NCBI GenBank assembly: GCA_020051025.1
Contig: JAGVJS010000294.1
Location: forward strand, 1 to 17,705
Length of the DNA stretch: 17,705 nucleotides
Direction of reading: 5' to 3'
DNA from: Sphingobium sp.
Lineage (GTDB): Bacteria; Pseudomonadota; Alphaproteobacteria; Sphingomonadales; Sphingomonadaceae
Below are positions 4,707 through 17,577 of this stretch, one piece after another; position 1 is the stretch's first letter; the number at the start of each line of letters is the position of its first letter. The notes under the pieces are model-generated. The model saw only the letters and a program-made list of their open reading frames with translations. It was not told the DNA's origin and searched no databases. A program made the position numbers and the translations under genes.

Positions 4707-4937
4707 TCTGCCCTCCTCCCCTTTTTCTGGCCCTGTTCCGGTCGCACGGCCCAAGGCTCCAAATCTATTGGCGGCGGAAATGCCATCGGTCCATCGCGAA
4801 AGCCTTGCCGACTTAAAAGCTGAACTTGTCGCCTTGCGCCGCCATCATGCAACGGCTCTTCGGACAGGGCCAGCGATAATGCCCCTCATGTTCGATAATG
4901 CTTTTCACATCGCGTCCGAAAGCCTAGAGGCGCTGCA
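4707..4937. promoter_or_regulatory. Divergent control region between pntA and the TPP-riboswitch operon
   Basis: This stretch has no credible gene. It must hold the leftward pnt promoter and the rightward promoter of the thiamine operon. I could not identify a convincing -35/-10 pair for either. Two copies of GATAAT (4875-4880, 4894-4899) resemble -10 hexamers on the plus strand but lack recognisable -35 partners. Confidence 0.45.
4874..4901 (+). repeat. Direct repeat CGATAATGC x2, 19-base period
   Basis: CGATAATGC occurs at 4874-4882 and again at 4893-4901, ten bases apart and about two helical turns start to start. It lies some 40 bases upstream of the TPP aptamer. It could be a regulator binding site or part of tandem promoters. 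The repeat is exact; its role is unknown. Confidence 0.4.
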
Positions 4938-5025
4938 TCCCCGGGGGGCCGCTTATGCGCGGTTGAGAGGTGGTCAGCAGACCACGACCCGCTGAACCTG
5001 ATCCGGCTGATTACCGGCGTAGGGA
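4938..5025 (+). ncRNA. TPP riboswitch aptamer (THI element)
   Basis: The conserved aptamer parts appear in order. P1 pairs TCCC 4938-4941 with GGGA 5022-5025, followed by the GGGGGGC block. P2 pairs GCCGC 4948-4952 with GCGGT 4959-4963 (one G-U pair), followed by the TGAGA core motif at 4964-4968. A variable P3 hairpin pairs GTGGTC 4970-4975 with GACCAC 4980-4985. The strongly conserved CTGAACCTGATCCGG and ACCGGCGTAGGGA blocks complete the P4/P5 arm. This element binds thiamine pyrophosphate and normally lowers expression of thiamine synthesis or uptake genes. It leads the TonB receptor, kinase and permease genes that follow. Identification rests on several independent motifs and consistent pairing. 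Confidence 0.96.
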
Positions 5026-5076
5026 GGGCAAGGCGGCGCGTCCGTCAGTCCCTCCGCGTGGAGTGGACGAGAGACG
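5022..5076 (+). promoter_or_regulatory. Predicted translational expression platform of the TPP riboswitch
   Basis: GGAGGG at 5023-5028, which includes part of the 3' strand of P1, can pair perfectly with CCCTCC at 5050-5055. CTCC at 5052-5055 can instead pair with GGAG at 5060-5063, just upstream of the receptor ATG at 5077. With TPP bound, P1 would hold its 3' strand and release CCCTCC to cover GGAG (off state). Without TPP the alternative helix would free GGAG (on state). No terminator U-tract is present, so control should be at translation. GGAG to ATG is 13 bases, a little long, so the neighbouring GGA at 5065-5067 may share the ribosome-site role. Confidence 0.55.
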
Positions 5077-7371
5077 ATGACGATTACTATCCATTATGTT
5101 GGCCGGGCTGCACTGGTGACGGCGCTGATGTTTTCTGTCCCCGGTGCGATGGCGGCCGGGGCCGACGAGCCGGCGCGCGCGACCATAGAGGTGACGGGCT
5201 ATCCCGACCCCCAGGGCCTGTTGCCCGACCAGGGCGCGCCCAAGGCCGTCAGTTCGATTGCCGAAGCCTTCATCAGCAAGCAGGCGCCGACGCTCAACGC
5301 CTTCCAGCTGGTCAACCTGCTGCCCGGCGCAAATGTGTCGTCCAGCGATCCCTATGGCCTGTCGGCAAGCTCCAGCCTGACGCTGCGCGGTCTGGGACAG
5401 GATCAGATCGGCGTACTGCTGGAAGGCGCGCCGCAGAATGACATCGGCTATTATTATGCCTATCCCTCGCAATTCGCCGACGCCGAAAATGTGCGGCAGA
5501 TCGCCTTGGCCCAGGGTGCGGCAGATATTGACGCGCCGGTCGTCGCCGCGGCGGGCGGGACATTGTCCCTGACGCTGGATGATCCCAAGGCGGCGATGGG
5601 CGGACTGGTCAATCTGTCGGTCGGTTCCTTTGACCAGCGGCGCGCATTCCTGCGATTCGACACTGGGGAGATCGGGGGAAGCGGGCTGAAGGCGTTCGTC
5701 TCCTACTCCAACAATCGCGCGGACAACTGGCGTGGGGCGGGCTACGATAAGCGGCAGCATATTGACGCGAAGCTGCTGCATGAATGGGGGGAGGGCAATC
5801 GCGCCAGCCTCGCCATTTCCTATAATGACGCGATCACATCGACCTATCCCAGCCCGACCATGGCGGACTGGCAGGCGAGCGGGCGCGGCTTCAATTTCAC
5901 GAAGCGCTACACCGATGGCGACACCAGCTATTGGCGCCTGTATCGTGCGCCGTTCCGCAACCTCTACTTCGCGGCGCCGGTGCATATTCAGCTGAGCGAC
6001 AATCTGACCTTCGATAGCAGCGCCTATCTTCAGATGGGGCACGGCAATTCGCCCTATGGCACGCAACTGGCGACCACCGGCAATTTCCTCGGCACGGAGG
6101 AACTGAGCCAGCCGATTACTCTGCCCGGCGCGGTGGATGGCGTGGCGACGGTGCTTGGCAACTGGACCGGCAAGCAGAGGCGCGTCGGCGACGTCAGCAA
6201 GCTCACCCTGAAGACGGGCACCCACGCCCTCACCGCCGGCCTGTGGTTCGATTATGGCACCGACCGGGTGACGCAAAGCTACACATCGATCGACGCGAAC
6301 GGGCGGCCGGTCGATGCATGGGGCTATCAGGACAAGGCGATCCGTACTGCTGACGGACGTTTGCTCGCCTATGAAAACCAGCGGACGGTCACGGTGACGA
6401 AGGGCTTCTTCCTGGCGGACAGCATCGCGGTCACGCCGCGTCTTACCATCGATGTCGGGTTCAAGGGGGTGAGCCTGCTGCGCAACGGCCGCAACTATCT
6501 GCCGGGGCCGCAATCGACGGTGCATGTCGACAGCGTCGCCGCCTTGCCGCGCGGGGCGGTCCATTATCAGCTGGATGAGCGGCAGCAACTGTTCGCCAAC
6601 ATCACGACCAATTTCCGCACGCCCAACGAGTTCGCGCTCTATAACGCCTATTATGGCGGTGAACTGGTTAGCCAGGGCACGGAGGCGCTGAAGAATGAAT
6701 ATAGCGTCTCGCAGGAACTGGGTTATCGCTATATCGGGCCGAACCTGTCGCTTTCGTTGACCGGATTCCATTATCATTTCCGCAATCGTCAGGTGGCGAC
6801 GGTGGTGAACAGCGGCGGTGCGCTGGTCAATTCGACCATAAACGGCGGCAGCCAGACCAGCTATGGCCTGGATGGCGAGGTCGATTATCGCCCGGCCAGG
6901 GGATTCAGCCTCTATGCCTCGGGCGAATATCTGCATACGCGGCTGGACGGCGATCTGCGCGTCGGCGGCAACCTGCTGCCAACGAAAGGCAAGCGGGCGG
7001 TATCCGCCCCGCGTTTCCAGTTCGCGCTTGGCAGCACCTATGATGACGGCCGTCTGTTCGGCAGCAGTGCGCTCAAATATGTCGGCCGCCAATATGCGAC
7101 TTTCATGAATGATGAGAGCATCAGGGGCTATGCCACGCTGGATCTGGCGATCGGCCTGCATCTGGCCGGTCTGATCGACACGCAGCGCATGGATGTTCGT
7201 CTCAATGCGATCAACGTCACCAATCCGCGCGTCCTGTCCGGCGTGTATGCGATCAGCAGCAACGCGCAGGACGTGATCGGTCGCAACGGCACGCTGATCG
7301 CGGGATCGGCGCCCAGCTATTATATCGGCAGTGGACGCGCCTTCGTGGCGACACTATCGCGGGCCTTCTGA
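5077..7371 (+). CDS. TonB-dependent receptor, predicted thiamine (or precursor) transporter
   Basis: The 764-residue protein opens with a clean signal peptide, cleaved probably after AMA at residue 26. A short linker with a possible TonB box (TIEVTG, about 36-41) and a plug domain (about 50-165, containing SSSLTLRGLGQDQIGVLLEG) follow. A long beta-barrel ends in the typical terminal phenylalanine (LSRAF). Such receptors take up scarce ligands across the outer membrane using TonB energy. The TPP riboswitch 52 bases upstream and the downstream PnuC-type permease indicate that the ligand is thiamine or a thiamine-derived compound. TPP-controlled receptors of this kind have been described by comparative genomics (called Omr1 in Bacteroidetes). 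Receptor family is certain; ligand is inference from context. Confidence 0.93.
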   Translation: MTITIHYVGRAALVTALMFSVPGAMAAGADEPARATIEVTGYPDPQGLLPDQGAPKAVSSIAEAFISKQAPTLNAFQLVNLLPGANVSSSDPYGLSASSSLTLRGLGQDQIGVLLEGAPQNDIGYYYAYPSQFADAENVRQIALAQGAADIDAPVVAAAGGTLSLTLDDPKAAMGGLVNLSVGSFDQRRAFLRFDTGEIGGSGLKAFVSYSNNRADNWRGAGYDKRQHIDAKLLHEWGEGNRASLAISYNDAITSTYPSPTMADWQASGRGFNFTKRYTDGDTSYWRLYRAPFRNLYFAAPVHIQLSDNLTFDSSAYLQMGHGNSPYGTQLATTGNFLGTEELSQPITLPGAVDGVATVLGNWTGKQRRVGDVSKLTLKTGTHALTAGLWFDYGTDRVTQSYTSIDANGRPVDAWGYQDKAIRTADGRLLAYENQRTVTVTKGFFLADSIAVTPRLTIDVGFKGVSLLRNGRNYLPGPQSTVHVDSVAALPRGAVHYQLDERQQLFANITTNFRTPNEFALYNAYYGGELVSQGTEALKNEYSVSQELGYRYIGPNLSLSLTGFHYHFRNRQVATVVNSGGALVNSTINGGSQTSYGLDGEVDYRPARGFSLYASGEYLHTRLDGDLRVGGNLLPTKGKRAVSAPRFQFALGSTYDDGRLFGSSALKYVGRQYATFMNDESIRGYATLDLAIGLHLAGLIDTQRMDVRLNAINVTNPRVLSGVYAISSNAQDVIGRNGTLIAGSAPSYYIGSGRAFVATLSRAF

Positions 7372-7373
7372 CC

Positions 7374-8492
7374 ATGAGCGGTGGCCATCTGGTGCATGGC
7401 ATGGGCCTCGCGCTGGAAGCGCCGACATGGCCTGCCATCACATCGGCAGAGGCGGAAGCGGCGCTGGCCCGCTTCCCGGCGGCGGGGCGACTGGCCGACC
7501 TCAGCTGGCATTCGCCGCGTCCGTTCTCGGCGGCGGCGCTGGTCGAAACCGACCGGGGCGTGCATTTCCTAAAACGCCATCATCGGCGGCTTCGTTCGCT
7601 CGCCGCGCTGGCGGAAGAACATGCCTTCATGGCCCATCTGCGGACGGCAGGCCTGTTGGTGCCGGAAGTTGTGGCGGCAACGGGTGGCGCGGGTGCCATC
7701 GCGCTGAGTGAATGGACTTATGAGTTGCACCGCGCCGCGCCGGGCCTCGACCTCTATCGCGACCGCCAGTCCTTGACCCCGTTCCTGACGTCGGACCATG
7801 CCCATGAAGCGGGCGCGGCGTTGGGGCGGTTGCATGAGGCCGCGCAGGGTTTTGCGGCACCGGCGCGGGGCGATTATCCGCTGGTCGCCAGCTTTACCAT
7901 AATGGCTGCGGGTGATCCGCTGGCGGCGACGGAGGCTTATGTCGCCGCCCGTCCGGCGCTGGCCGGCTGGCTGGCTGGCAAGAACTGGCAGCAGCAACTG
8001 GCGCGGCTGTTTGCAGCGCTGGGCGGCGGCATACCGGATCAACCGTCGCTCTGGACCCATAATGACTGGCATCCTTCCAATCTCCTCTGGGCGGAGGATG
8101 GCAGGGTGGCCGCCATCATCGATTTCGGACTGTCCACCCGCACCTGCGCGTTGCACGATCTGGCAACCGCGATCGAACGGACTGCCTTTCGCTGGCTGGA
8201 CTTGGGGCAGGAGGCGGCGCTGGGCGATGTCGACACGGCGATTGCGATGCTGCACGGGTATCGAACGGTGCGTGCGCTCAGCCGGACCGACATGGACAGT
8301 CTGATCCGCCTGCTGCCGCTGGTCCATGTGGAATTCGCCTTGTCGGAGATCGACTATTTCGCTGGTATCGTCGGCGACCCCGGCCAGGCGGCCATTGCCT
8401 GGCAGGATTATCTGATCGGCCATGCCGACTGGTTTCTGTCCATGGCGGGCCAGAGCTTTCTGCGGTGCTTCGCGAAAGAGGCGATGGCCTGA
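7374..8492 (+). CDS. APH-family small-molecule kinase, predicted thiamine kinase (ThiK-like role)
   Basis: The 372-residue protein has the aminoglycoside/choline kinase fold. It shows an N-lobe lysine in FLKRHH (about K67), the catalytic loop HNDWHPSNLLW with D231 and N236, and the metal-binding IIDFG with D250. The ATG lies two bases after the receptor stop without a strong ribosome site, so translation is probably coupled. M10 is a less likely start. Its place between a TPP-regulated receptor and a PnuC/PnuT permease suggests that it phosphorylates incoming thiamine, trapping it as thiamine monophosphate as E. coli ThiK does. It is about 100 residues longer than ThiK, so a different vitamer or a diphosphokinase activity is possible. 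Nothing supports antibiotic resistance. Kinase fold is firm; substrate is inference. Confidence 0.85.
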   Translation: MSGGHLVHGMGLALEAPTWPAITSAEAEAALARFPAAGRLADLSWHSPRPFSAAALVETDRGVHFLKRHHRRLRSLAALAEEHAFMAHLRTAGLLVPEVVAATGGAGAIALSEWTYELHRAAPGLDLYRDRQSLTPFLTSDHAHEAGAALGRLHEAAQGFAAPARGDYPLVASFTIMAAGDPLAATEAYVAARPALAGWLAGKNWQQQLARLFAALGGGIPDQPSLWTHNDWHPSNLLWAEDGRVAAIIDFGLSTRTCALHDLATAIERTAFRWLDLGQEAALGDVDTAIAMLHGYRTVRALSRTDMDSLIRLLPLVHVEFALSEIDYFAGIVGDPGQAAIAWQDYLIGHADWFLSMAGQSFLRCFAKEAMA

Positions 8493-9064
8493 TGTCCATG
8501 CTGGAAATCATCGCCGTTGCCGTCAGCTTTCTCGGCATCTGGTTGACGGCGAAGCGGTACATGCTGTGCTGGCCGGTCAATCTTCTGGCCTGCACGCTCT
8601 ACTTTCGGATATTCCTCGACGTGCGCCTCTATGCCGATATGCTGCTCCAGGCGTTGTTTGGCCTGGCCATCCTCTATGGCTGGATCATATGGGCGCGCGG
8701 CAGGGCACAGGCGGGCACAGTGATCGTGGCGCCGCTGCCGGTCAGGCGCGCGGTTGTGGGACTGGCGACCGGCGCCGCCGGTGCGCTTGCGATCGGATGG
8801 ATCATGCATCGTTTCACCGACGCATCATTGCCCTGGATGGATGCCTCCCTGAGCAGCTTCAGCCTGGTCGCCCAATATTGGACTGCGCGCCGTCATGCAG
8901 TCAGCTGGCTGTTATGGATAGCTGTCGATATCGTTTATGTCGGCATGTTCGCGTTCAAGCATCTGTGGCTGACGGCAGGTCTTTATGGGGCGATGATCAT
9001 TCTTGCCGTGCTGGGTTATCGACGGTGGCGGGCGACGATCATGACGCCCGATCGGTCCGACTGA
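8492..9064 (+). CDS. pnuT: PnuC/PnuT-family vitamin permease, predicted thiamine transporter
   Basis: This 190-residue membrane protein carries the PnuC-family pattern: a WPVNL motif (W27), LYADMLLQ at 46-53, YGWIIW at 62-67, and a C-terminal tryptophan-rich helix pair (about 136-175). About seven helices are expected. PnuC proteins are facilitators for nicotinamide riboside, thiamine (PnuT) or riboflavin, and rely on intracellular phosphorylation to retain the substrate. The TPP riboswitch at the operon head favours thiamine. The ATG at 8492 overlaps the kinase TGA by one base (TGATG), showing tight coupling; a frame from 8465 would begin inside the kinase. The 3' end overlaps the convergent rhamnosidase gene by 26 bases. 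Family call strong, substrate moderately supported. Confidence 0.88.
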   Translation: MSMLEIIAVAVSFLGIWLTAKRYMLCWPVNLLACTLYFRIFLDVRLYADMLLQALFGLAILYGWIIWARGRAQAGTVIVAPLPVRRAVVGLATGAAGALAIGWIMHRFTDASLPWMDASLSSFSLVAQYWTARRHAVSWLLWIAVDIVYVGMFAFKHLWLTAGLYGAMIILAVLGYRRWRATIMTPDRSD

Positions 9065-12000
9065 AGCGATAATGGCCTGACCCCAGCGTGAATGTCCCGC
9101 CGGTCGCGCAGGTCACGACCGGATGATCGTCAACCGCCGGTCCATCTTCGACCCAGTTGCCGGCCGGCAATTCCACCTGTGCCGTGCAATTGGCGGGGAT
9201 GGTGATCGTCAGGCACGAAAGGCCGGTTCCATCGCCGGCGATCATGGTTTCAATCAGTCCGACCTGACTGTCATAATGCGCCGACACGGCCCCAACCTCA
9301 GGAAACCAGAGTGGCTTGATCGCAATCTGGCGGAATCCCGCGCTCGCCGGCGCAATAGCCGCCAGTCGACGATAGAAGAATCCAACCACTGCGCCGAAGG
9401 CATAATGGTTATAGCTGTTCATCGAAAGGTCGCCGACATCGCCATTCCACCGCTCCCAGACGGTAGTCGCGCCGACGCTGGGCATATAACCCCAGGAAGG
9501 ATAGGCCGTCTGTAGCAGCAGGCCGGCTACTTCCTCCCATGCACCCGCCTCGGCCAGCACGTCCAGCAGATAGGGCGTGCCGAGGAAGCCGGTCGACAAT
9601 TTCATGCCCCGCGCCCGAATATCCTGCGCCAGAAGGCGGGCGGCATCACCACGCTGCCCCTGCGGCACCAGACCCATGTAGAGCGCCAGCACCTGACTGC
9701 ACTGGCTACCATTGCCGGCCTTGCCGTCGCCGTCCAGCAACTCTGCGGCAAAGGCCGTGCCGATCGCCGTGCGCAGCGCAGCATAGCGCTCGGCATCCGT
9801 TTCGCGGCCGGTCGCCTGCGCCATCTCCGCCATCAGTTGCGCACTATAGGCCCAGTAGGCGGTGGCGCACAGGATGCGGGGCGTGGTTTCGTCATCGGGC
9901 TGGATCGCATCGACCGACAGCCAATCGCCCAGATCCAGCCCGCGATCGTTGCGCCAGACATGGTCGGGATTGTCACGGGCGACGAAATCCATCCACCGCT
10001 CCATCGCCGCCCAATTCTCGTCGATGACGGCGGTGTCACCATAACGCTGCCACAGGCCATGTGGCAGGATGATGCCGGCTTCGCTCCAACCCGCCGTCAC
10101 GACGTCGGGGAAAGACAGGGGCTGCGGCACGACGATCGGATAGGCGCCATCGGGCCGCTGCGCCGCCCGTGCTTCCAGCAGGAAACGACGGATGAAGGGA
10201 TCGACTTCCATATTGAAGGCGGCTGCGTCCAGAAACACCTGAATATCGCCCATCCATCCCATGCGCTCGTCGCGTTGCGGGCAATCGGTGGGCACGGCAA
10301 AGAAGTTCGACCGCTGGCTCCACAGCGCATTGTTCCAGATGCGCTGAAGCAGGGGCGAGGCGAAGTCCATCGTGCCGGTTTCGCGGCAGTCGCTATGGAC
10401 GACGACCGCCTTTATATCGTCCAGCGTAGGCGTGCCGGGGTAGCCTTCCACCTCGACATAACGGAAACCATGATAGGTGAAACGCGGGGCGAACGTCTCG
10501 CCTGCGGCATCGCCGCGCAGGATGAAGCGATCGGTACATTCAGCCCGGCGCAGGTTGGACTGGTCCGCCGTGCCGTCCGGGTTCAGCAATTCGGCAAAGC
10601 GCAAAGTGATGCAGGTGCCAGCAGGGCCGCTGGCCCGCAGCTGTGCCCAACCGGGCATGTTCTGGCCAAAATCGAACACGAAGCGGCCGGCTATCGGCTC
10701 GGCGACTGATTGCGGCTGCATGATCCGTGTCGCGCGCAGCGGTGGAGACGTCTGTGAGATCAGTTGTATGGCCGGAGCATCGCCGATCCGTACCGTGCGC
10801 CAAGCGCTGTCGTCGAAGGCGGGCTGATCCCAGCCGGGATGCTCCAGGCGGGCATCATATGTTTCGCCGCCATAGATGTCGGAAGCCAGAACCGGACTGC
10901 CGCCGATGCGCCACTCGCGTCCTGTCGCCACCCACTGGCTTGATCCATCGGCATAGTCAATGCGTAGCTGGGCGAGCAGGCGGCGCGGTGCCGGGCCGAA
11001 GCCGTATCGCTCCATCCGCCAGCCGAACGCGCCCGCATAGAAGCCGTCCGCTACGGTGAAGGCCAAAGCATTGGCGCCCTGGCGCAGCAAGGGCGTCACA
11101 TCATGGCATTGGTAAAGGATATGGCTTTTAGCGACGCTGATCTCGGGCGCCAGCACATGGTCTGATACAGGCTGGCCATTGATCCGCGCTTCATAGGCGC
11201 CCAGCGCCGTAGCATAGAGGCGTGCCGTCACAACCGGGCCGCGCGCTTCGAATTCCGTCCGCAGGCAGATCCCCGGTTCCTTGGGGCGCGGGTCGCCCTG
11301 CGCGCGCGCGCCGGAAGACTGGGCCGCTGCCCAGCCGCTCATGTCGAAACTCGGATCGGTCCAGCCTTCGACCGGGTCGGTTTCAACCCGCCAATGGGGA
11401 CCGCTGACCCATCGTTCGACGTCGCCATTGCCGTGATGGAGACGGATCAGTGCTGCCATGGCGCCGCCATCGACCGGGAAGAAGCCGCTGGTGTCGGCCG
11501 TCGCAAGCAGGCAAAGGCAGTTGCGGCCTGGCTTCACCAGCCCCTGCGCAGGTAACAGGCTGCCCCAGTAGACAAGCTCAGGCAATGTTACCGGCTCGCC
11601 ATTCAGCCAGACACCCAGCAGATTGTCCTTCGCGGCGACCAAGATGGCCGCATCGATCAGCTCCTCGGGCGCATCGAAGTCCAGCCGGAATCCATGCGGA
11701 CGCGGATCGAGCGGGTCGGCGCTCCATATCCATTGCAGGCCGGCGGCGCGATCGGCCGCCGCCTCTTCATCTTCGGCTTCGATCCATTCTGCCTTCCAGG
11801 CATCGGGCGTCATCAGCCCGGCTTCGAACCAGCTGGATTCAGACTGTGCGCTGCGTCCCTGATTGTCGACGATCAGGACACCCCACCAGATGCGTTGCAT
11901 CAGCTGAAGCGGCGGCCCGCCATAGGCTATGTCGAAACAGGCATCGCTTTCCACCACGCCGCTATCCCACAGCAAAGTGCCACCGCCTCGCGGATCGGTC

Positions 12001-12155
12001 GTCGCCCGGATGCGATAGCTGCGCTGCATGACGTCCCGGCCGTCGCTTTCCAGGCGCCAGGACAGGCGCGGATGACGAGCCTCCACGCCCAGCGGTTCGA
12101 CCAGATAATCAGCGCGCAAATCCAGAACGCGCAGAAAACGGGCAGGGGAGGTCAT
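9039..12155 (-). CDS. GH78 family alpha-L-rhamnosidase, cytoplasmic
   Basis: The 1038-residue protein has the GH78 architecture. An N-terminal beta domain (about 10-115, with EARHPRLSWRL) and further beta domains (about 290-470) precede the (alpha/alpha)6 barrel (about 590-930) and a C-terminal beta domain. The barrel holds the catalytic block DCPQRDERMGWMGD (about 624-637), source of the general acid, and TTVWERW with a second glutamate (about 901) at the expected general-base place. GH78 enzymes release alpha-L-rhamnose from plant glycosides and pectin fragments by inversion. No signal peptide is seen, so it probably acts on imported oligosaccharides or glycosides. The ATG at 12155 lies ten bases after the isomerase stop, with a GAGAG-rich leader; an upstream ATG would overlap that gene. 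Family is firm; the exact glycoside is unknown. Confidence 0.93.
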   Translation of the reverse strand: MTSPARFLRVLDLRADYLVEPLGVEARHPRLSWRLESDGRDVMQRSYRIRATTDPRGGGTLLWDSGVVESDACFDIAYGGPPLQLMQRIWWGVLIVDNQGRSAQSESSWFEAGLMTPDAWKAEWIEAEDEEAAADRAAGLQWIWSADPLDPRPHGFRLDFDAPEELIDAAILVAAKDNLLGVWLNGEPVTLPELVYWGSLLPAQGLVKPGRNCLCLLATADTSGFFPVDGGAMAALIRLHHGNGDVERWVSGPHWRVETDPVEGWTDPSFDMSGWAAAQSSGARAQGDPRPKEPGICLRTEFEARGPVVTARLYATALGAYEARINGQPVSDHVLAPEISVAKSHILYQCHDVTPLLRQGANALAFTVADGFYAGAFGWRMERYGFGPAPRRLLAQLRIDYADGSSQWVATGREWRIGGSPVLASDIYGGETYDARLEHPGWDQPAFDDSAWRTVRIGDAPAIQLISQTSPPLRATRIMQPQSVAEPIAGRFVFDFGQNMPGWAQLRASGPAGTCITLRFAELLNPDGTADQSNLRRAECTDRFILRGDAAGETFAPRFTYHGFRYVEVEGYPGTPTLDDIKAVVVHSDCRETGTMDFASPLLQRIWNNALWSQRSNFFAVPTDCPQRDERMGWMGDIQVFLDAAAFNMEVDPFIRRFLLEARAAQRPDGAYPIVVPQPLSFPDVVTAGWSEAGIILPHGLWQRYGDTAVIDENWAAMERWMDFVARDNPDHVWRNDRGLDLGDWLSVDAIQPDDETTPRILCATAYWAYSAQLMAEMAQATGRETDAERYAALRTAIGTAFAAELLDGDGKAGNGSQCSQVLALYMGLVPQGQRGDAARLLAQDIRARGMKLSTGFLGTPYLLDVLAEAGAWEEVAGLLLQTAYPSWGYMPSVGATTVWERWNGDVGDLSMNSYNHYAFGAVVGFFYRRLAAIAPASAGFRQIAIKPLWFPEVGAVSAHYDSQVGLIETMIAGDGTGLSCLTITIPANCTAQVELPAGNWVEDGPAVDDHPVVTCATGGTFTLGSGHYRFSRTDRAS

Positions 12156-12165
12156 GCCGTCTCTC

Positions 12166-13146
12166 TCAATAGGAAGTGAAAAGGGCGTCGCGCGCAAGCT
12201 TCATCGCGGCGATCGCATCCTGTCGATCCTGCGCCGCCTGCATCGCCTCGAAATCCAGCTTATCCAGTGCCCGTTCGATCACCTTCAGGAAACTGATCGC
12301 GGCATTGGCGGCTTCGACGCTATCCTCACGGAAGGGGAACTGGTCCAGTTGCCAGACGCCGTCCCACTGGTTCTTGCGTAGCGTATAGAAGAATTCGAAC
12401 AATTCGATCGGATGCACCGATCCGGCGATCATGTCGTCGTCCCAGCCGCGAAAATTGTCGTTCACATCCATGCCGAACAGCCGGCCATGGTCGATCGCCA
12501 GCTGCGCTGCGTCCGCCGGCGATTCTCCGCCATAAAGCGAGTGACCGAAGTCGAGCAAAATGCCGATATTGGGCAGGCCGATTTTCTCGATGCCCAATAG
12601 CGTTCGCGCGACGCTGTCATAACTCATATGGTTGCGCGGCTCGCGTGGCTTATATTCGATGACGAATTTCAGGTCCGGATTCTGGCTGGCCAGTTCGCCC
12701 ACACCATCCATGCTCATCTGCCACAATTTGCGATGATCGACCTGGAAGGGATAATCCCAGCCATCCTGCCCCGGCCAAAGCTTCACGTAATCGGCACCGA
12801 ACCGCCGCACCACATTGGCTGCATCGTTTACCATAGCGTTGGCCAGTCGGCGCACGCCCGGATCGGGATTGGTGAAGGCGCCCTTGGCGAACTGGCGGGT
12901 GTATATTTCGGGCGTGATCCCGATCACCGACAGATTGTTGCGTTTCAGCGCCGCATCCACCGTATCGAGCGACAGGCTGGAGTCGACGAAGGGATAGTTG
13001 ATGTCGACAACCGACAGATCCTCCACCTGTCCGGCCAGATCGATCATCTCGATCAGCGAGCGGGCCGGGCCATAGCCATCGGTGGCATAGCGATCCACAT
13101 AGGTTGCGAAATGCCAGATGCCCGCGCCATATCTCTGCTTGCCCAT
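12166..13146 (-). CDS. Xylose-isomerase-like TIM-barrel aldose-ketose isomerase (candidate D-apiose isomerase)
   Basis: The 326-residue protein shows active-site elements shared with xylose isomerase. EYKPREP at 164-170 supplies a metal-binding glutamate and the catalytic lysine K166. LLDFGH follows (D199, H202), then MDVNDN (D227, N229), resembling the SIDAN strand, and LDQFPFRED (D268), resembling the DQFP segment. Two metal ions normally assist hydride transfer between C1 and C2 of an aldose. The ATG at 13146 has GAGG eight bases upstream and gives [13 protein letters not shown]; a longer frame has an arginine-rich, unlikely extension. It sits between a DeoR regulator and a rhamnosidase, opposite a split transketolase and FGGY kinase. 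This fits production of a ketose for phosphorylation, with D-apiose to D-apulose as the best precedent. L-rhamnose is an alternative substrate. Confidence 0.8.
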
Positions 13147-13216
13147 AGGGTGATCCTCTCCATATGAATTGCTGCCATGGCGCACGACCCCGCGCGCCGG
13201 CCTGCCGCCATTGCGG

Positions 13217-14005
13217 TCAGGCGATGATAATCTGCACGCCGATCGCCTCGATCGCCTTGCGGTCCTCGTCGCGTATGCCTTCGTCGGTGACGAGGACATG
13301 GACCAGTTCCAGCCCGCCCAGTGACGAGAAGGAGCGCTGTCCGATCTTGCTGCTGTCGGCGACCAGGCATACCTGTTCGGCTGCGCCGATCATCGCCCGT
13401 TTGACGGCGATGTCCGACAGCGCCGGATAGGTCAGGCCGCTCCCGATATCGACCGCCGCCGTCGCCAGAAACAGGCGCTGGACATATAGGCCCGTGAAAT
13501 AGTCAGCGGACCGTTCGCCGGACAGAGACAGGGTCGGGGCTTTGAAATGGCCGCCTGTCATATGCACTTCGAATCCCGGTTCCGCCCCCAGCATCAGCGC
13601 GATGTTCAACGCGTTGGTGATGACCGTCAGGTCGCGTCGTCCCAGCATATGAGTCGCGACCGCCGTGGTCGTCGATCCGCTGTCCAATATGATCGTTTCG
13701 CCATTGCCGACCAGCGCTGCGGCGGCGCGGCCGATCCGATCCTTCGCGTCCAGATGTCCCTGATGTTGCAAGGCCATCGACCGCACCTGTTGCGGCACGG
13801 ATTTCAGGAAGGCGCCGCCATGCTCGCGCTCGATATGGCCGTCGGCTTCCAGCTTCTCCAGATCCTGCCGCACCGTGACTTCCGATACGCCGAATGCTTC
13901 GGCCAGGGTCCGGACGCGGGCACTGCCCTCCTCCTGCAACCATTCCAGGATCTTGAGTCGGCGCGTTTCACCCAGCAGACGGCTTTGTACGCTGTCCTTT
14001 ACCAT
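13217..14005 (-). CDS. DeoR/GlpR-family transcriptional regulator
   Basis: The 262-residue protein has an N-terminal winged helix-turn-helix (about 17-65, with [19 protein letters not shown]). Its C-terminal DeoR sensor domain shows ILDSGSTTT at about 106-114 and [10 protein letters not shown] near 217, the sites that bind a phosphorylated sugar in this family. Most members repress neighbouring sugar genes until the phosphorylated intermediate appears. The ATG at 14005 has GGAAG five bases upstream; a longer frame adds a non-conserved leader of 27 residues. It heads the leftward gene set (70 bases before the isomerase) and lies beside a tandem repeat at 14135-14154 that is a likely operator. 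It probably controls both divergent arms. Size matches GlpR (about 252 residues). Confidence 0.93.
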
Positions 14006-14110
14006 CCCTGCTTCCGGATCAAGGTGGGGGATAGTGCGCGCAAATGTCTCTCCAGCGGGTCGCCGCCCGATAGCAGCCTTCAACACTCCCTAAGATAGTT
14101 TGGCGCGCCT

Positions 14111-14116
14111 TGTCAA
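14111..14116 (-). promoter_or_regulatory. Candidate -35 hexamer of the leftward deoR-isomerase-rhamnosidase transcript
   Basis: On the minus strand this is a perfect TTGACA about 105 bases upstream of the regulator start. The region 16-18 bases further (CTTAGG/TTAGGG) is a poor -10 match, so the call is tentative. Confidence 0.35.
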
Positions 14117-14134
14117 TTTCTCCCTTTCACATTT

Positions 14135-14154
14135 AAAACGAAAGAAAACGAAAG
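14135..14154 (+). promoter_or_regulatory. Tandem 10-bp repeat, candidate DeoR-type operator
   Basis: AAAACGAAAG occurs twice with no gap (14135-14144, 14145-14154) in the AT-rich centre of the divergent control region. DeoR-family regulators commonly bind short direct repeats, and the adjacent gene is a DeoR-family regulator. The site lies just upstream of the leftward TTGACA. It also abuts the -35 zone of a possible rightward -10 CATAAT (14176-14181), so it could control both directions. A CTTTC at 14124-14128 may be a partial inverted copy. The repeat is exact; operator function is inference. Confidence 0.6.
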
Positions 14155-14175
14155 TTATCCACTTGCGTATTTTTT

Positions 14176-14181
14176 CATAAT
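14176..14181 (+). promoter_or_regulatory. Candidate -10 hexamer for the rightward transketolase-kinase operon
   Basis: CATAAT matches TATAAT at five of six places. No good -35 lies upstream, but the expected -35 position adjoins the tandem repeat, which fits a regulated promoter. It would give a leader of roughly 75 bases. Confidence 0.35.
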
Positions 14182-14264
14182 CCAATAGCAACCCGCTTCA
14201 GGGAGAGTTTTGCCAGATGATGATACAGCCTGCTTCCGCCCCGTCTCTTGGGGGTGGAGATGAC

Positions 14265-15095
14265 ATGAACCTACGCGCTTCTCGCATTAAATCGCGCGCC
14301 AACTGGATGCGCAGGCGTCTGCTGGCGATGATCGTGGAGGCGGGGCAGGGCCATCCGGGCGGCGATCTTTCGGCGACCGATATTATCGCGGCGCTCTATT
14401 TCGATATTCTGCGTTTCGATTCGGCGGAACCTGCCGCCCCCGGTCGCGATCGTTTCGTGATGAGCAAAGGGCATTGCACTGGCGCTCTCTATACCGCGCT
14501 GGCTGGTGCAGGCTTCTTCCCGGAAGCGGATCTGGACACCTATTTGAAGCCGGAGTCCCGGCTCAACGGCCACCCGAACCGCACCTATCTGCCGGGCGTC
14601 GAAACCAACACCGGGCCGCTGGGCCATGGTTTGCCGGTGGCGGTCGGCATCGCCGTCGCGGGGCAGATCGACAGGGCGGACTATCGCGTCTTCGTCCTGA
14701 CCGGCGACGGAGAATTGCAGGAAGGATCGATGTGGGAAGCGGCGATGTTCGCCGGCCATCGCGGCCTTGGTCAGTTGACGGTGATCGTCGATCGCAACCG
14801 GTTACAGCAGGGCGCGGCGACCGAGGACACCAATGCGCTCGAGCCGCTGGCCGACAAATGGCGTGCCTTCGGTTGGGATGTGGCGGAAGTGGACGGCCAT
14901 GACCCGGCCGCTCTGCTCACGGCCTTCGATACCGCCTGCCGGCCCCGGTCCAAACCGCTGTGCATCATCGCCAATACGCAGAAGGGGCATGGCGTCAGTT
15001 TCATGGAAAATCAGGCCGGATGGCATCATGGCGTGCCCAATGCCGAACAATATGCGCAGGCAATCGCCGAGCTGGAAGCGGAGATGGTCGCATGA
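14265..15095 (+). CDS. Split transketolase, N-terminal (TPP-binding) subunit; AptA-like
   Basis: The 276-residue protein is the pyrophosphate-binding half of a transketolase. It has the early GQGHPGGDLSATD segment (H30), SKGH at 67-70, the GPLGHG turn with H121, and the thiamine-pyrophosphate motif GDGELQEG (147-154) closing at VDRN (N178), which coordinates TPP-Mg. The ATG at 14265 is chosen because GGTGGAG lies five bases upstream and the product then starts like other N-terminal subunits. ATGs at 14217 and 14220 would add 15-16 residues and have a more distant ribosome site. The stop overlaps the next subunit by four bases (ATGA). Together the halves should transfer a two-carbon ketol unit. 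The kinase/isomerase context suggests apulose 4-phosphate or a similar ketose phosphate as donor, rather than a housekeeping role. Confidence 0.9.
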   Translation: MNLRASRIKSRANWMRRRLLAMIVEAGQGHPGGDLSATDIIAALYFDILRFDSAEPAAPGRDRFVMSKGHCTGALYTALAGAGFFPEADLDTYLKPESRLNGHPNRTYLPGVETNTGPLGHGLPVAVGIAVAGQIDRADYRVFVLTGDGELQEGSMWEAAMFAGHRGLGQLTVIVDRNRLQQGAATEDTNALEPLADKWRAFGWDVAEVDGHDPAALLTAFDTACRPRSKPLCIIANTQKGHGVSFMENQAGWHHGVPNAEQYAQAIAELEAEMVA

Positions 15096-16048
15096 GCGCC
15101 GCTGCGGCCCCCACCGGCCTGTTCGACTGCCGCGACGCCTATGTCCGCACCGTTGAGCAACTGGCCGCAGATGACGATCGCATCGTCGCCGTCGTCAATG
15201 ACTCGGTCGGATCGTCCAAATTGGGCAAGTTCCGCGACCGCTTCCCCGAACGGCTGGTCAATGTCGGCATCGCCGAACAGAATATGGTCGGCGTCGGCGC
15301 CGGTCTGGCCAATGGCGGCAAGATTCCCTTCGTCAGCGGGGCGTCCTGTTTCCTCAGCGCGCGCGCGCTGGAGCAGATCAAGGCGGACTGCGCCTATAGC
15401 CATGCCAATGTGAAGCTGTGCGGTATTTCCAGCGGCGTCGCTTATGGCGAACTGGGCGCGACCCATCATAGTATCGAGGACGTTGCCTGGCTGCGCGCGA
15501 TCGATCGGCTGACGGTCATTGTGCCAGCCGATCCCTGGCAAACGGCCGAGGCGATCAAGGCGGCCGCCGCTCATGATGGCCCGGTCTATATCCGCATCAG
15601 CCGCATGCCTGTGCCCGAACTGGCGCGCACCGATGCAACCTTCCGCATTGGTCAGGCAGAGCGGCTGCGCGCCGGGACCGATATCGCGATCGTCGCGAAC
15701 GGCACGCTGGTCCATCATGCCGTATCTGCGGCGCAGAGGCTGGAAGCAGACGGCATTTCCGCGCAGGTCATCAATATGGCGACCGTGTCCCCGATCGATA
15801 CCGCCATGTTGGCGCAGGCGGCGGCGACCGGGGCCATCGTCACGGCGGAGGAGGGGCTGGCGCATGGCGGCCTGGGCGGCGCTGTCGCCGAATATTGTGC
15901 GACGCACAGCCCCGTGCCGATGCGTATGCTGGGTTTCCCTGGTTTCCTGCCCACCGGATCGACGCAATGGCTGATGGACCGGTTCGGCCTCAATGCGGAC
16001 GGGATCTTCGCTGCTGCGCATGACCTGCTCAAGGTAAAGGCCCGCTGA
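15092..16048 (+). CDS. Split transketolase, C-terminal (pyrimidine-binding) subunit; AptB-like
   Basis: The 318-residue protein carries the transketolase pyrimidine-binding domain (about 10-175) and the C-terminal domain (about 185-315). VGIAEQNMVGVGAGLA holds E62, the conserved glutamate that activates the thiazolium cofactor from the partner chain. GATHHSIED (H125/H126) supplies substrate-phosphate or donor contacts in this family. The ATG at 15092 sits in an ATGA overlap with the N-terminal subunit, which ensures paired translation. A longer frame from 14960 lies wholly within the upstream gene and is discarded. The gene overlaps the following kinase by one base. Such split transketolases are often devoted to one catabolic route. 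Assignment to apulose 4-phosphate is by context only; E1 and DXS families fit less well because no synthase-specific features are present. Confidence 0.9.
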   Translation: MSAAAAPTGLFDCRDAYVRTVEQLAADDDRIVAVVNDSVGSSKLGKFRDRFPERLVNVGIAEQNMVGVGAGLANGGKIPFVSGASCFLSARALEQIKADCAYSHANVKLCGISSGVAYGELGATHHSIEDVAWLRAIDRLTVIVPADPWQTAEAIKAAAAHDGPVYIRISRMPVPELARTDATFRIGQAERLRAGTDIAIVANGTLVHHAVSAAQRLEADGISAQVINMATVSPIDTAMLAQAAATGAIVTAEEGLAHGGLGGAVAEYCATHSPVPMRMLGFPGFLPTGSTQWLMDRFGLNADGIFAAAHDLLKVKAR

Positions 16049-17577
16049 TGCGCAACCCGGTCATCCTGGCCATCGATCAGGGGACGACCAATACCAAGGC
16101 CCTGCTCGTGTCCCCGGCGGGCGAGATCATCCTGTCGCGCGCGCGGGCAATGCAGGTGACATATCCGCAACCTGGCTGGGCGGAACAGTCCGCGTCGGAC
16201 ATATGGCAAGCGGTGGCAGGCCTGATTGCGGAACTGGTCGCGGCGGCGCCCAATGTGGAAATCGTCTCGCTCGCTTTGTCCAACCAGCGTGAAACGGTCG
16301 TCTTGTGGGACGCACGGACCGGTGAACCTGTGGCGCCTGCCATCCTCTGGCAATGCCGCCGGTCCGAAGCGCGCTGCGCCGCGCTGCGAGAGGCCGGGCA
16401 TGAGGAGATGATTGCCGCGCGTAGCGGCCTTGGTATCGACCCGCTCTTCCCGGCGGCCAAGATCGGCTGGATGCTCGCCGCCCTGCCCAATGGCCGGCAA
16501 CGCGCTGCGCGCGGGGAATTGCGCTGCGGTACGATCGATAGCTGGCTGCTGTGGAAATTGACTGACGGCGCGGTGCACGCGACCGATTACAGCAATGCAT
16601 CGCGCACCCAATTGTTCAATATCGATACCTTGTGCTGGGATCCGGCGCTCGCCGCTTTGTTCGATGTGCCGCTGGTGCTGCTGCCGGATGTGCGCGGATC
16701 GGACAGCCGCTTCGGCACGGTCGCGACAGGTTTGACGGCGCTGCGGGCTGACACGCCCATTCACGCAATCATGGGCGACAGTCACGCCGCCCTCTTCCAC
16801 CACAGCGCGACGCAGGCCGGCGCGACCAAGGTGACGATTGGCACCGGCAGCTCGATCATGACCGCAACGCCACGCCCTGTCCGCTCGGGCCATGGCCTGT
16901 CCAGCACCATCGCCTGGCATCGCCGTGGCGCGGCCCAATATGCGTTGGAAGGCAATATCGCCATTTCCGGTCATGCCGCTGCCTTCGCCGCCACCCTCCT
17001 GGGCCTGCCTGATGAAGCGGCTCTTACCGATTTGGCGGCCAGCGTACCCGATAGCGGGGGCGTCGTGTTCCTGCCGGCATTGGTGGGCCTGGGCGCGCCG
17101 CATTGGTGCAGCGAAGCGCGCGGCGCGATCTCTGGCCTGTCGCTCGGCACACGCCCCGCCCATATCGCCCGCGCCGCTTTAGAGGCGATCGCATTGCAGA
17201 TTGCCGATGTGGTCGCCGCGATGGAGGCGGATCTGGGCGCCGTCGTGCCGCAAATCTCGGTCGATGGCGGCGCGACGCGCAACCCGCTGTTGATGCAGTT
17301 GCTTGCCGATCTGACCGACCGCCCCGTCTTCCGCCCGCATGTGGCGGAAGCCAGCGCATTGGGCGTGGCTCGCCTTGCTGTCGAAGCGATCGGGCTGTCG
17401 GTGCCGGCTCTTCATGGCGCGTCGGCCAACCGGGTGATGCCGATCATGCCGGCGGAAGAACGGCAGCGCATCAGGGCGAGTTGGCAGGCGGCCGTGGCCA
17501 GCGCGATGCGCCGGACTCAGTCCGATCATGCCAATGAAAATGGGTCGATAGTGAAGGAAGCAAGGACAGGCCGATGA
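16048..17577 (+). CDS. FGGY-family carbohydrate kinase related to glycerol kinase (candidate D-apulose kinase)
   Basis: The 509-residue protein follows glycerol kinase nearly end to end. It has the phosphate-binding start AIDQGTTNTKALL (D10), NQRET (R81, E82), WQCRRS (W101), DYSNASRTQLFNI, the catalytic GDSHAALF (D244), GTGSSIM, and a C-terminal FGGY segment VDGGATRNPLLMQ. FGGY kinases phosphorylate polyols or ketoses with ATP. Two E. coli GlpK glycerol contacts are changed: Tyr135 corresponds to leucine in GIDPLF, and Phe270 to serine in GTGSS. The GlpK GGKGGTR loop that binds fructose bisphosphate is also missing. Glycerol is therefore an unlikely substrate. The ATG overlaps the transketolase stop by one base (TGATG). 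With an isomerase and transketolase alongside, a ketose such as apulose is the best candidate, but only by context. Confidence 0.88.
   Translation: MRNPVILAIDQGTTNTKALLVSPAGEIILSRARAMQVTYPQPGWAEQSASDIWQAVAGLIAELVAAAPNVEIVSLALSNQRETVVLWDARTGEPVAPAILWQCRRSEARCAALREAGHEEMIAARSGLGIDPLFPAAKIGWMLAALPNGRQRAARGELRCGTIDSWLLWKLTDGAVHATDYSNASRTQLFNIDTLCWDPALAALFDVPLVLLPDVRGSDSRFGTVATGLTALRADTPIHAIMGDSHAALFHHSATQAGATKVTIGTGSSIMTATPRPVRSGHGLSSTIAWHRRGAAQYALEGNIAISGHAAAFAATLLGLPDEAALTDLAASVPDSGGVVFLPALVGLGAPHWCSEARGAISGLSLGTRPAHIARAALEAIALQIADVVAAMEADLGAVVPQISVDGGATRNPLLMQLLADLTDRPVFRPHVAEASALGVARLAVEAIGLSVPALHGASANRVMPIMPAEERQRIRASWQAAVASAMRRTQSDHANENGSIVKEARTGR

Follow-up and report, generated by a model that had tools for sequence, protein, structure and literature searches.

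Genes and layout of the locus

We analysed a stretch of 17,705 nucleotides (hereafter the window) that makes up the whole of one contig (C91) of a 61% complete Sphingobium sp. assembly (GCA_020051025.1; G000 in our genome samples). It carries two divergent gene sets (Table 1): as the preliminary description had it, a DeoR regulator, an isomerase and a GH78 rhamnosidase run leftward, and a split transketolase with an FGGY kinase runs rightward with stop/start overlaps. All six genes are real and have open frames. The isomerase stop lies 10 bases from the GH78 start, an ATGA overlap at 15092-15095 joins the two transketolase halves, and a one-base overlap at 16048 joins the C-terminal half to the kinase. 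Overlooked in that description was the start of a TonB-dependent receptor at the right-hand end, and the rightward operon therefore runs off the contig; in Sphingobium sp. Leaf26 the receptor likewise comes after the kinase. A domain search of nine window proteins returned no match to an aldolase family, in line with the earlier statement that the locus has none.

Table 1. Features of the locus, with positions in the window
Feature	Position	Strand	Remarks
GH78 alpha-L-rhamnosidase	9039-12155	-	1038 aa; second gene, after isomerase, in leftward set; Pfam Bac_rhamnosid6H 375 bits
D-apiose isomerase (ApsI-like, predicted)	12166-13146	-	326 aa; xylose-isomerase-type TIM barrel
DeoR-family repressor	13217-14005	-	262 aa; DeoRC + HTH_DeoR domains
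Candidate DeoR operator	14139-14154	.	CGAAAG-N4-CGAAAG direct repeat in the divergent gap; putative binding site
AptA-like transketolase N-terminal half	14265-15095	+	Transketolase_N
AptB-like transketolase C-terminal half	15092-16048	+	Transket_pyr + Transketolase_C
Apulose kinase (AplK-like, predicted), FGGY family	16048-17577	+	FGGY_N/C
TonB-dependent receptor, first 18 residues, cut by contig end	17652-17705	+	matches start of Leaf26 (L002) receptor

The closest named locus is that of Leaf26, with identities of 96% for the isomerase, 95% for DeoR, 91% and 92% for the transketolase halves, 89% for the kinase and 85% for GH78; the kinase of another genome of the genus (G076) is identical to that of Sphingobium xanthum NL9. 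For a wider view we used 80 isomerase loci, which, being the best 80 of 153 relatives, are biased towards close kin. All 71 of these loci that hold both transketolase halves and the kinase have them in the order N - C - kinase, all on the same strand and spanning no more than 4.5 kb, and this constancy (71/71) shows that the arrangement is not due to chance.

The best NCBIfam model for DeoR is AgaR (206 bits, under the cut-off of 260), and no PDB relative was found at E 1e-10. DeoR would bind the direct repeat in the divergent gap and repress from there. Across 33 divergent DeoR/transketolase gaps of related loci, the relaxed form CGAAA-N5-CGAAA occurs in 10 (0.13 expected) and the strict pattern in four, with neither form in 23. 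Elsewhere in the window, positions 4932-9064 hold a TPP riboswitch (4932-5042, plus strand) followed by genes for a TonB receptor, an APH-family kinase and a PnuC-type transporter; this is probably a thiamine uptake cluster, and its place beside a thiamine diphosphate-dependent transketolase is probably a coincidence.

Isomerase, kinase and split transketolase

The window holds a D-apiose isomerase homologue, whose nearest PDB chain is 3ktc from Erwinia carotovora atroseptica SCRI1043 (200 of 320 residues identical, 62%). The names given to that structure, 'xylose isomerase' and 'putative sugar isomerase', do not point to apiose, which counts against the apiose reading, and a literature search found no paper related to 3KTC. 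In an NCBIfam profile search the isomerase reaches no cut-off; a protein search counted 3664 relatives, and of the 120 that were listed none bears a more telling name than xylose isomerase, TIM barrel protein or sugar phosphate isomerase/epimerase. According to the available part of PMC13001218, the apiose cluster of P. carotovorum WPP14, a species related to the source of 3ktc, includes apsI, the E. coli cluster lacks apsI (a point against the apiose reading), and E. coli, E. fergusonii and Pectobacterium strains carrying the cluster grow on apiose; the cluster of E. coli SE15 was its authors' query, the strains grown on apiose being others. In Marinomonas (L063:9986-10969), an isomerase of 76% identity is surrounded by genes that belong to other pathways, and the stretch examined contains no match to the kinase or the transketolase; thus, the isomerase alone is no marker of a locus.

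A blastp comparison with the SE15 cluster gave 44% identity of the N-terminal transketolase half to AptA, 41% of the C-terminal half to AptB and 42.3% of the kinase to AplK. A two-gene transketolase of the AptA/AptB kind lies beside the kinase; the N-terminal half also matches the split-chain transketolase 6yak (267 bits). A comparison of the kinase with characterised apiose enzymes had been proposed earlier, and when 73 kinases (69 different) were placed in a tree, the window kinase fell together with SE15 AplK and 46 kinases of other loci on one side of a 99/90 split, with GlpK, the actinobacterial kinases and four others on the other side. This placement calls for caution given the long branches (AplK 1.45, GlpK 1.2) and the fact that the window kinase is nearly as near to E. 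coli GlpK (39.6%) as to AplK. The kinases of four isomerase loci (L027, L028, L029 and L033) group with GlpK, which counts against the apiose reading. Against the glycerol kinase model the window kinase scores 474 bits, under the cut-off of 590; glycerol metabolism was considered for it and set aside on the kinase tree and the operon partners.

The likeness of the isomerase to 3ktc, the kinase tree, the identity to AptA and AptB and the co-occurrence with PF13204 enzymes (see below) support the earlier proposal of the same or an analogous apiose route. The core of the locus is very probably an operon for the breakdown of D-apiose by isomerase, kinase and split transketolase. In the apiose scheme reportedly set out by Carter et al. 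2018, and also named in the preliminary description, apulose 4-phosphate and a transketolase give DHAP and xylulose 5-phosphate. The isomerase would turn D-apiose into apulose, the kinase would make apulose 4-phosphate from it, and AptAB would move a two-carbon unit to glyceraldehyde 3-phosphate to yield these two products.

Rhamnosidase, apiosidases, uptake and rhamnose-route genes

The GH78 protein aligns over its full length (669 bits) with 3w5m, which we take to be the GH78 alpha-L-rhamnosidase SaRha78A. The GH78 catalytic domain is present, with the RDER and WERW stretches, which presumably hold the acid and base, kept in the alignment. N-termini were judged by a crude hydrophobicity scan that took the best of several start codons, some GH78 rows using a start inside the gene: the window GH78 shows no signal-like stretch, and neither do 13 of the 14 relatives listed, the one from Asticcacaulis (L040) having a Tat-like one. 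Among 396 genomes of the order, GH78 at 63% identity or more was found in nine (G000 included), the isomerase in 12 and both in eight (p 3e-13). This and the other p values given here treat related genomes as independent, and some of the sampled genomes are also among the 80 loci. This co-occurrence supports the coupling of the rhamnosidase to apiose genes that was noted before from the window itself. In seven of the eight genomes no more than 13 kb separates the two genes; in the eighth (G045) the distance is 36 kb. Four of the 12 isomerase genomes are without this GH78 group, and one genome (G196) has a GH78 of the group and no isomerase, the gene adjoining homologues of rhamnonate dehydratase, hydrolase and lactonase. 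Six further GH78 matches at 44-46% were found in G434, G456, G314, G450, G394 and G261, with the isomerase in G434 and G314 only. In the GH78 tree, 27 rows close to the window (same-genome copies included) fall on one side of a fully supported branch; since the label 'close' was set by identity to the window, the evidence is the co-occurrence and not the branch.

A second contig of the assembly (C325) begins within a TonB receptor, at about residue 49, followed by a GH140 enzyme, an MFS transporter and a DUF5060/PF13204 enzyme. Its receptor covers residues 49-1006 at 96% identity to that of Leaf26, where the order is likewise receptor, GH140, MFS; we infer that C91 and C325 join in the genome across an unbridged gap. 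The GH140 gene of C325 (L083:2931-4309) is broken into two overlapping frames, through decay or assembly error, and the Leaf26 copy (L002:776-2419) has an open frame. Matches of the L006 GH140 protein are 3kzs/5msy (418 bits) and 8t9w, named 'Apiosidase' (300 bits). GH140 N-termini are hydrophobic and signal-like in all 11 rows listed (10 distinct genes). L004, L006 and L008 share the order isomerase - GH140 - GH78, and in them a distance of 73-105 bases separates GH140 from the isomerase. A GH140 or DUF5060-type PF13204 enzyme occurs in the stretch examined in 29 of these best 80 of 153 relatives; 16 have GH140 (at 40% or more) and 22 the DUF5060 type (at 50% or more). Among 149 genomes of the family, PF13204 is over cut-off in eight and the isomerase is present in seven, with both in five (p 2e-6); G004, G110 and G146 have PF13204 without the isomerase, G025 and G057 the reverse, and in G029 the PF13204 gene lies about 40 bases from the isomerase.

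The type of uptake system looks exclusive among the 80 loci at the thresholds used: a receptor or MFS transporter is found in 31, a ribose-type ABC permease in 21 and both in none. An Sde182/nucleoside-hydrolase-like protein (PF07632) directly follows the isomerase in L036 (10997-12472), L040 (about 11.0 kb) and G045 (C2:117471-118253), loci that are without GH140. With a threshold of 25%, 13 of the 80 loci have it, mostly kilobases from the isomerase, in Alpha- and Gammaproteobacteria, Actinobacteria and one Bacteroidia MAG, and none of them has a GH140 of 40% or more (the one in L028 reaches 32%); it is found in three of seven isomerase genomes and five of 142 others (p 0.003). This protein is a candidate for a new apiofuranosidase; its family is widespread among the matches listed, and a literature search under the family name DUF1593 found no paper. 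In four actinobacterial loci (L048, L050, L054 and L075) a protein group lies near the transketolase or isomerase, its L050 member matching inosine-uridine nucleoside hydrolase (PF01156).

The non-phosphorylative scheme converts L-rhamnose by way of rhamnonate and then 2,4-diketo-3-deoxyrhamnonate into pyruvate and lactate. Proteins of isomerase loci pass the NCBIfam cut-offs for Lra1 (462 bits, cut-off 400), rhamnonate dehydratase (740, cut-off 393) and LldD (643, cut-off 550), and a diketo-rhamnonate hydrolase falls just under its own (471, cut-off 500). At least two of Lra1, dehydratase and hydrolase occur in 11 of the 80 loci. Another contig of the same assembly (C332) holds homologues of rhamnonate dehydratase (81%) and diketo-rhamnonate hydrolase (59%); by our reading, its open frames also include an IclR-type regulator and the beginning of an SDR. 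A protein that we read as a glycolate-oxidase-like iron-sulphur subunit occurs in 10 of the 80 loci (e.g., L024:15594-16904).

A predicted two-sugar system and its known relatives

Both RG-II and numerous other glycosides of plants have apiose as a key constituent (in part PMC13001218, PMC7939467). The explanation that covers the whole, drawn from gene content, gene order, homology and co-occurrence and given high confidence, is that an apiose operon has been broadened so that apiose and L-rhamnose from a plant glycan can be used together, and the locus probably serves growth on plant glycans that contain both. The TonB receptor would import an apiose-bearing oligosaccharide, the periplasmic GH140 apiosidase (with the second PF13204 enzyme) would free apiose or a rhamnosyl-apiose piece, the MFS transporter would carry this into the cytoplasm, and GH78 would remove alpha-L-rhamnose there, the rhamnose then going via rhamnonate and 2,4-diketo-3-deoxyrhamnonate to pyruvate and lactate.

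That GH78 acts on the rhamnosyl-apiose bond in particular has, in our estimate, not quite an even chance. The available text of PMC7939467 describes, for the RG-II pentasaccharide with Rha-alpha1,3-Api-beta1,2-GalA, the action of BT1012 (beta-apiosidase) and finally of BT1001 (alpha-rhamnosidase) on the Rha-Api disaccharide; because this sequence of steps is compatible with the isomerase - GH140 - GH78 order, Rha-Api is the best single guess for the substrate, with saponins and flavonoids as possible alternative sources. Tentatively, the GH78 group may even be a cytoplasmic enzyme dedicated to the Rha-Api disaccharide left by GH140 from RG-II, the operon and its rhamnose-route partners forming a compact two-sugar scavenging system of sphingomonads. 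It is just as conceivable, if doubtful, that apiose is the substrate of the core and that the targets of GH78 are other rhamnosides (flavonoid rutinosides, saponins, RG-I ends) imported together with apiosides, the operon merely grouping sugars that are met together. The rhamnose-route neighbours of the G196 gene, in a genome without the isomerase, the 36 kb separation in G045, and the incomplete overlap of GH140 (16 of 80 loci) with this GH78 (19 of 80) point that way, whereas the gene order in L004, L006 and L008 fits stepwise action on one glycan, and the Rha-alpha1,3-Api linkage does exist in RG-II, as the accessible part of PMC7939467 has it.

A different substrate for the core itself is improbable. 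The GlpK-like profile score of the kinase and the failure of the isomerase to reach any NCBIfam cut-off would suit another aldose or branched sugar (e.g., a tetrose or other pentose), with apiosidases nearby for other reasons; however, PF13204 is present in five of the seven isomerase genomes of the family sample, the kinase groups with AplK, and 3ktc comes from a group with an apiose cluster. The standard phosphorylative L-rhamnose pathway, in which the isomerase would act as RhaI and the kinase as RhaB, is rejected as exceedingly unlikely, as the preliminary description had also argued: GH78 lies next door and two RhaI-type models detect the isomerase weakly (64 and 30 bits), but these scores are far below the cut-offs of 531 and 647, the kinase is only 25% identical to RhaB, no aldolase matched among the nine window proteins, and genes of the L-rhamnose dehydrogenase route occur in related loci and partly in the genome itself.

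The core pathway is already known; what appears to be new is its form in sphingomonads, where it is accompanied by GH78, apiosidases, a TonB receptor and rhamnose-route genes, and we found no description of an apiose locus in sphingomonads in open-licence PMC full text. The pairing of apiose catabolism with apiosidases and one GH78 group points to a likely substrate for sphingomonad enzymes that are recorded only as xylose isomerase or TIM barrel protein, and the claim is directly testable because Leaf26, an isolate, has nearly the same operon (isomerase 96%, GH78 85%).

Among known systems, SaRha78A resembles the window GH78 in full-length alignment and active-site stretches, but the latter falls into a group of its own, most of whose members come from isomerase-bearing sphingomonads and Asticcacaulis. 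At least two of the three genes of the non-phosphorylative L-rhamnose route (Lra1, rhamnonate dehydratase, 2,4-didehydro-3-deoxy-L-rhamnonate hydrolase) accompany 11 of the 80 loci and two lie on C332, with none inside the window. RG-II degradation by BT1012 and BT1001 likewise pairs an apiosidase with an alpha-rhamnosidase acting successively on Rha-alpha1,3-Api-beta1,2-GalA; in contrast, the genes identified in the window and C325 include no GalA, fucose or arabinofuranose hydrolase, and the window GH78 is without a signal-like N-terminus. A further relative is the D-apiose transketolase pathway (apsI, aplK, aptA, aptB), known from Pectobacterium and other bacteria, as presented in the available part of PMC13001218, which likewise has isomerase, FGGY kinase and split transketolase in one cluster and no aldolase match. 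The sugar ABC importer of the E. coli cluster, no defining enzyme of the pathway, was not found here. Whereas E. coli has that importer and a sugar-binding regulator, the locus described here has a TonB receptor (with the MFS transporter on C325) and DeoR, and is adjoined by GH78 and, on C325, PF13204 hydrolases.
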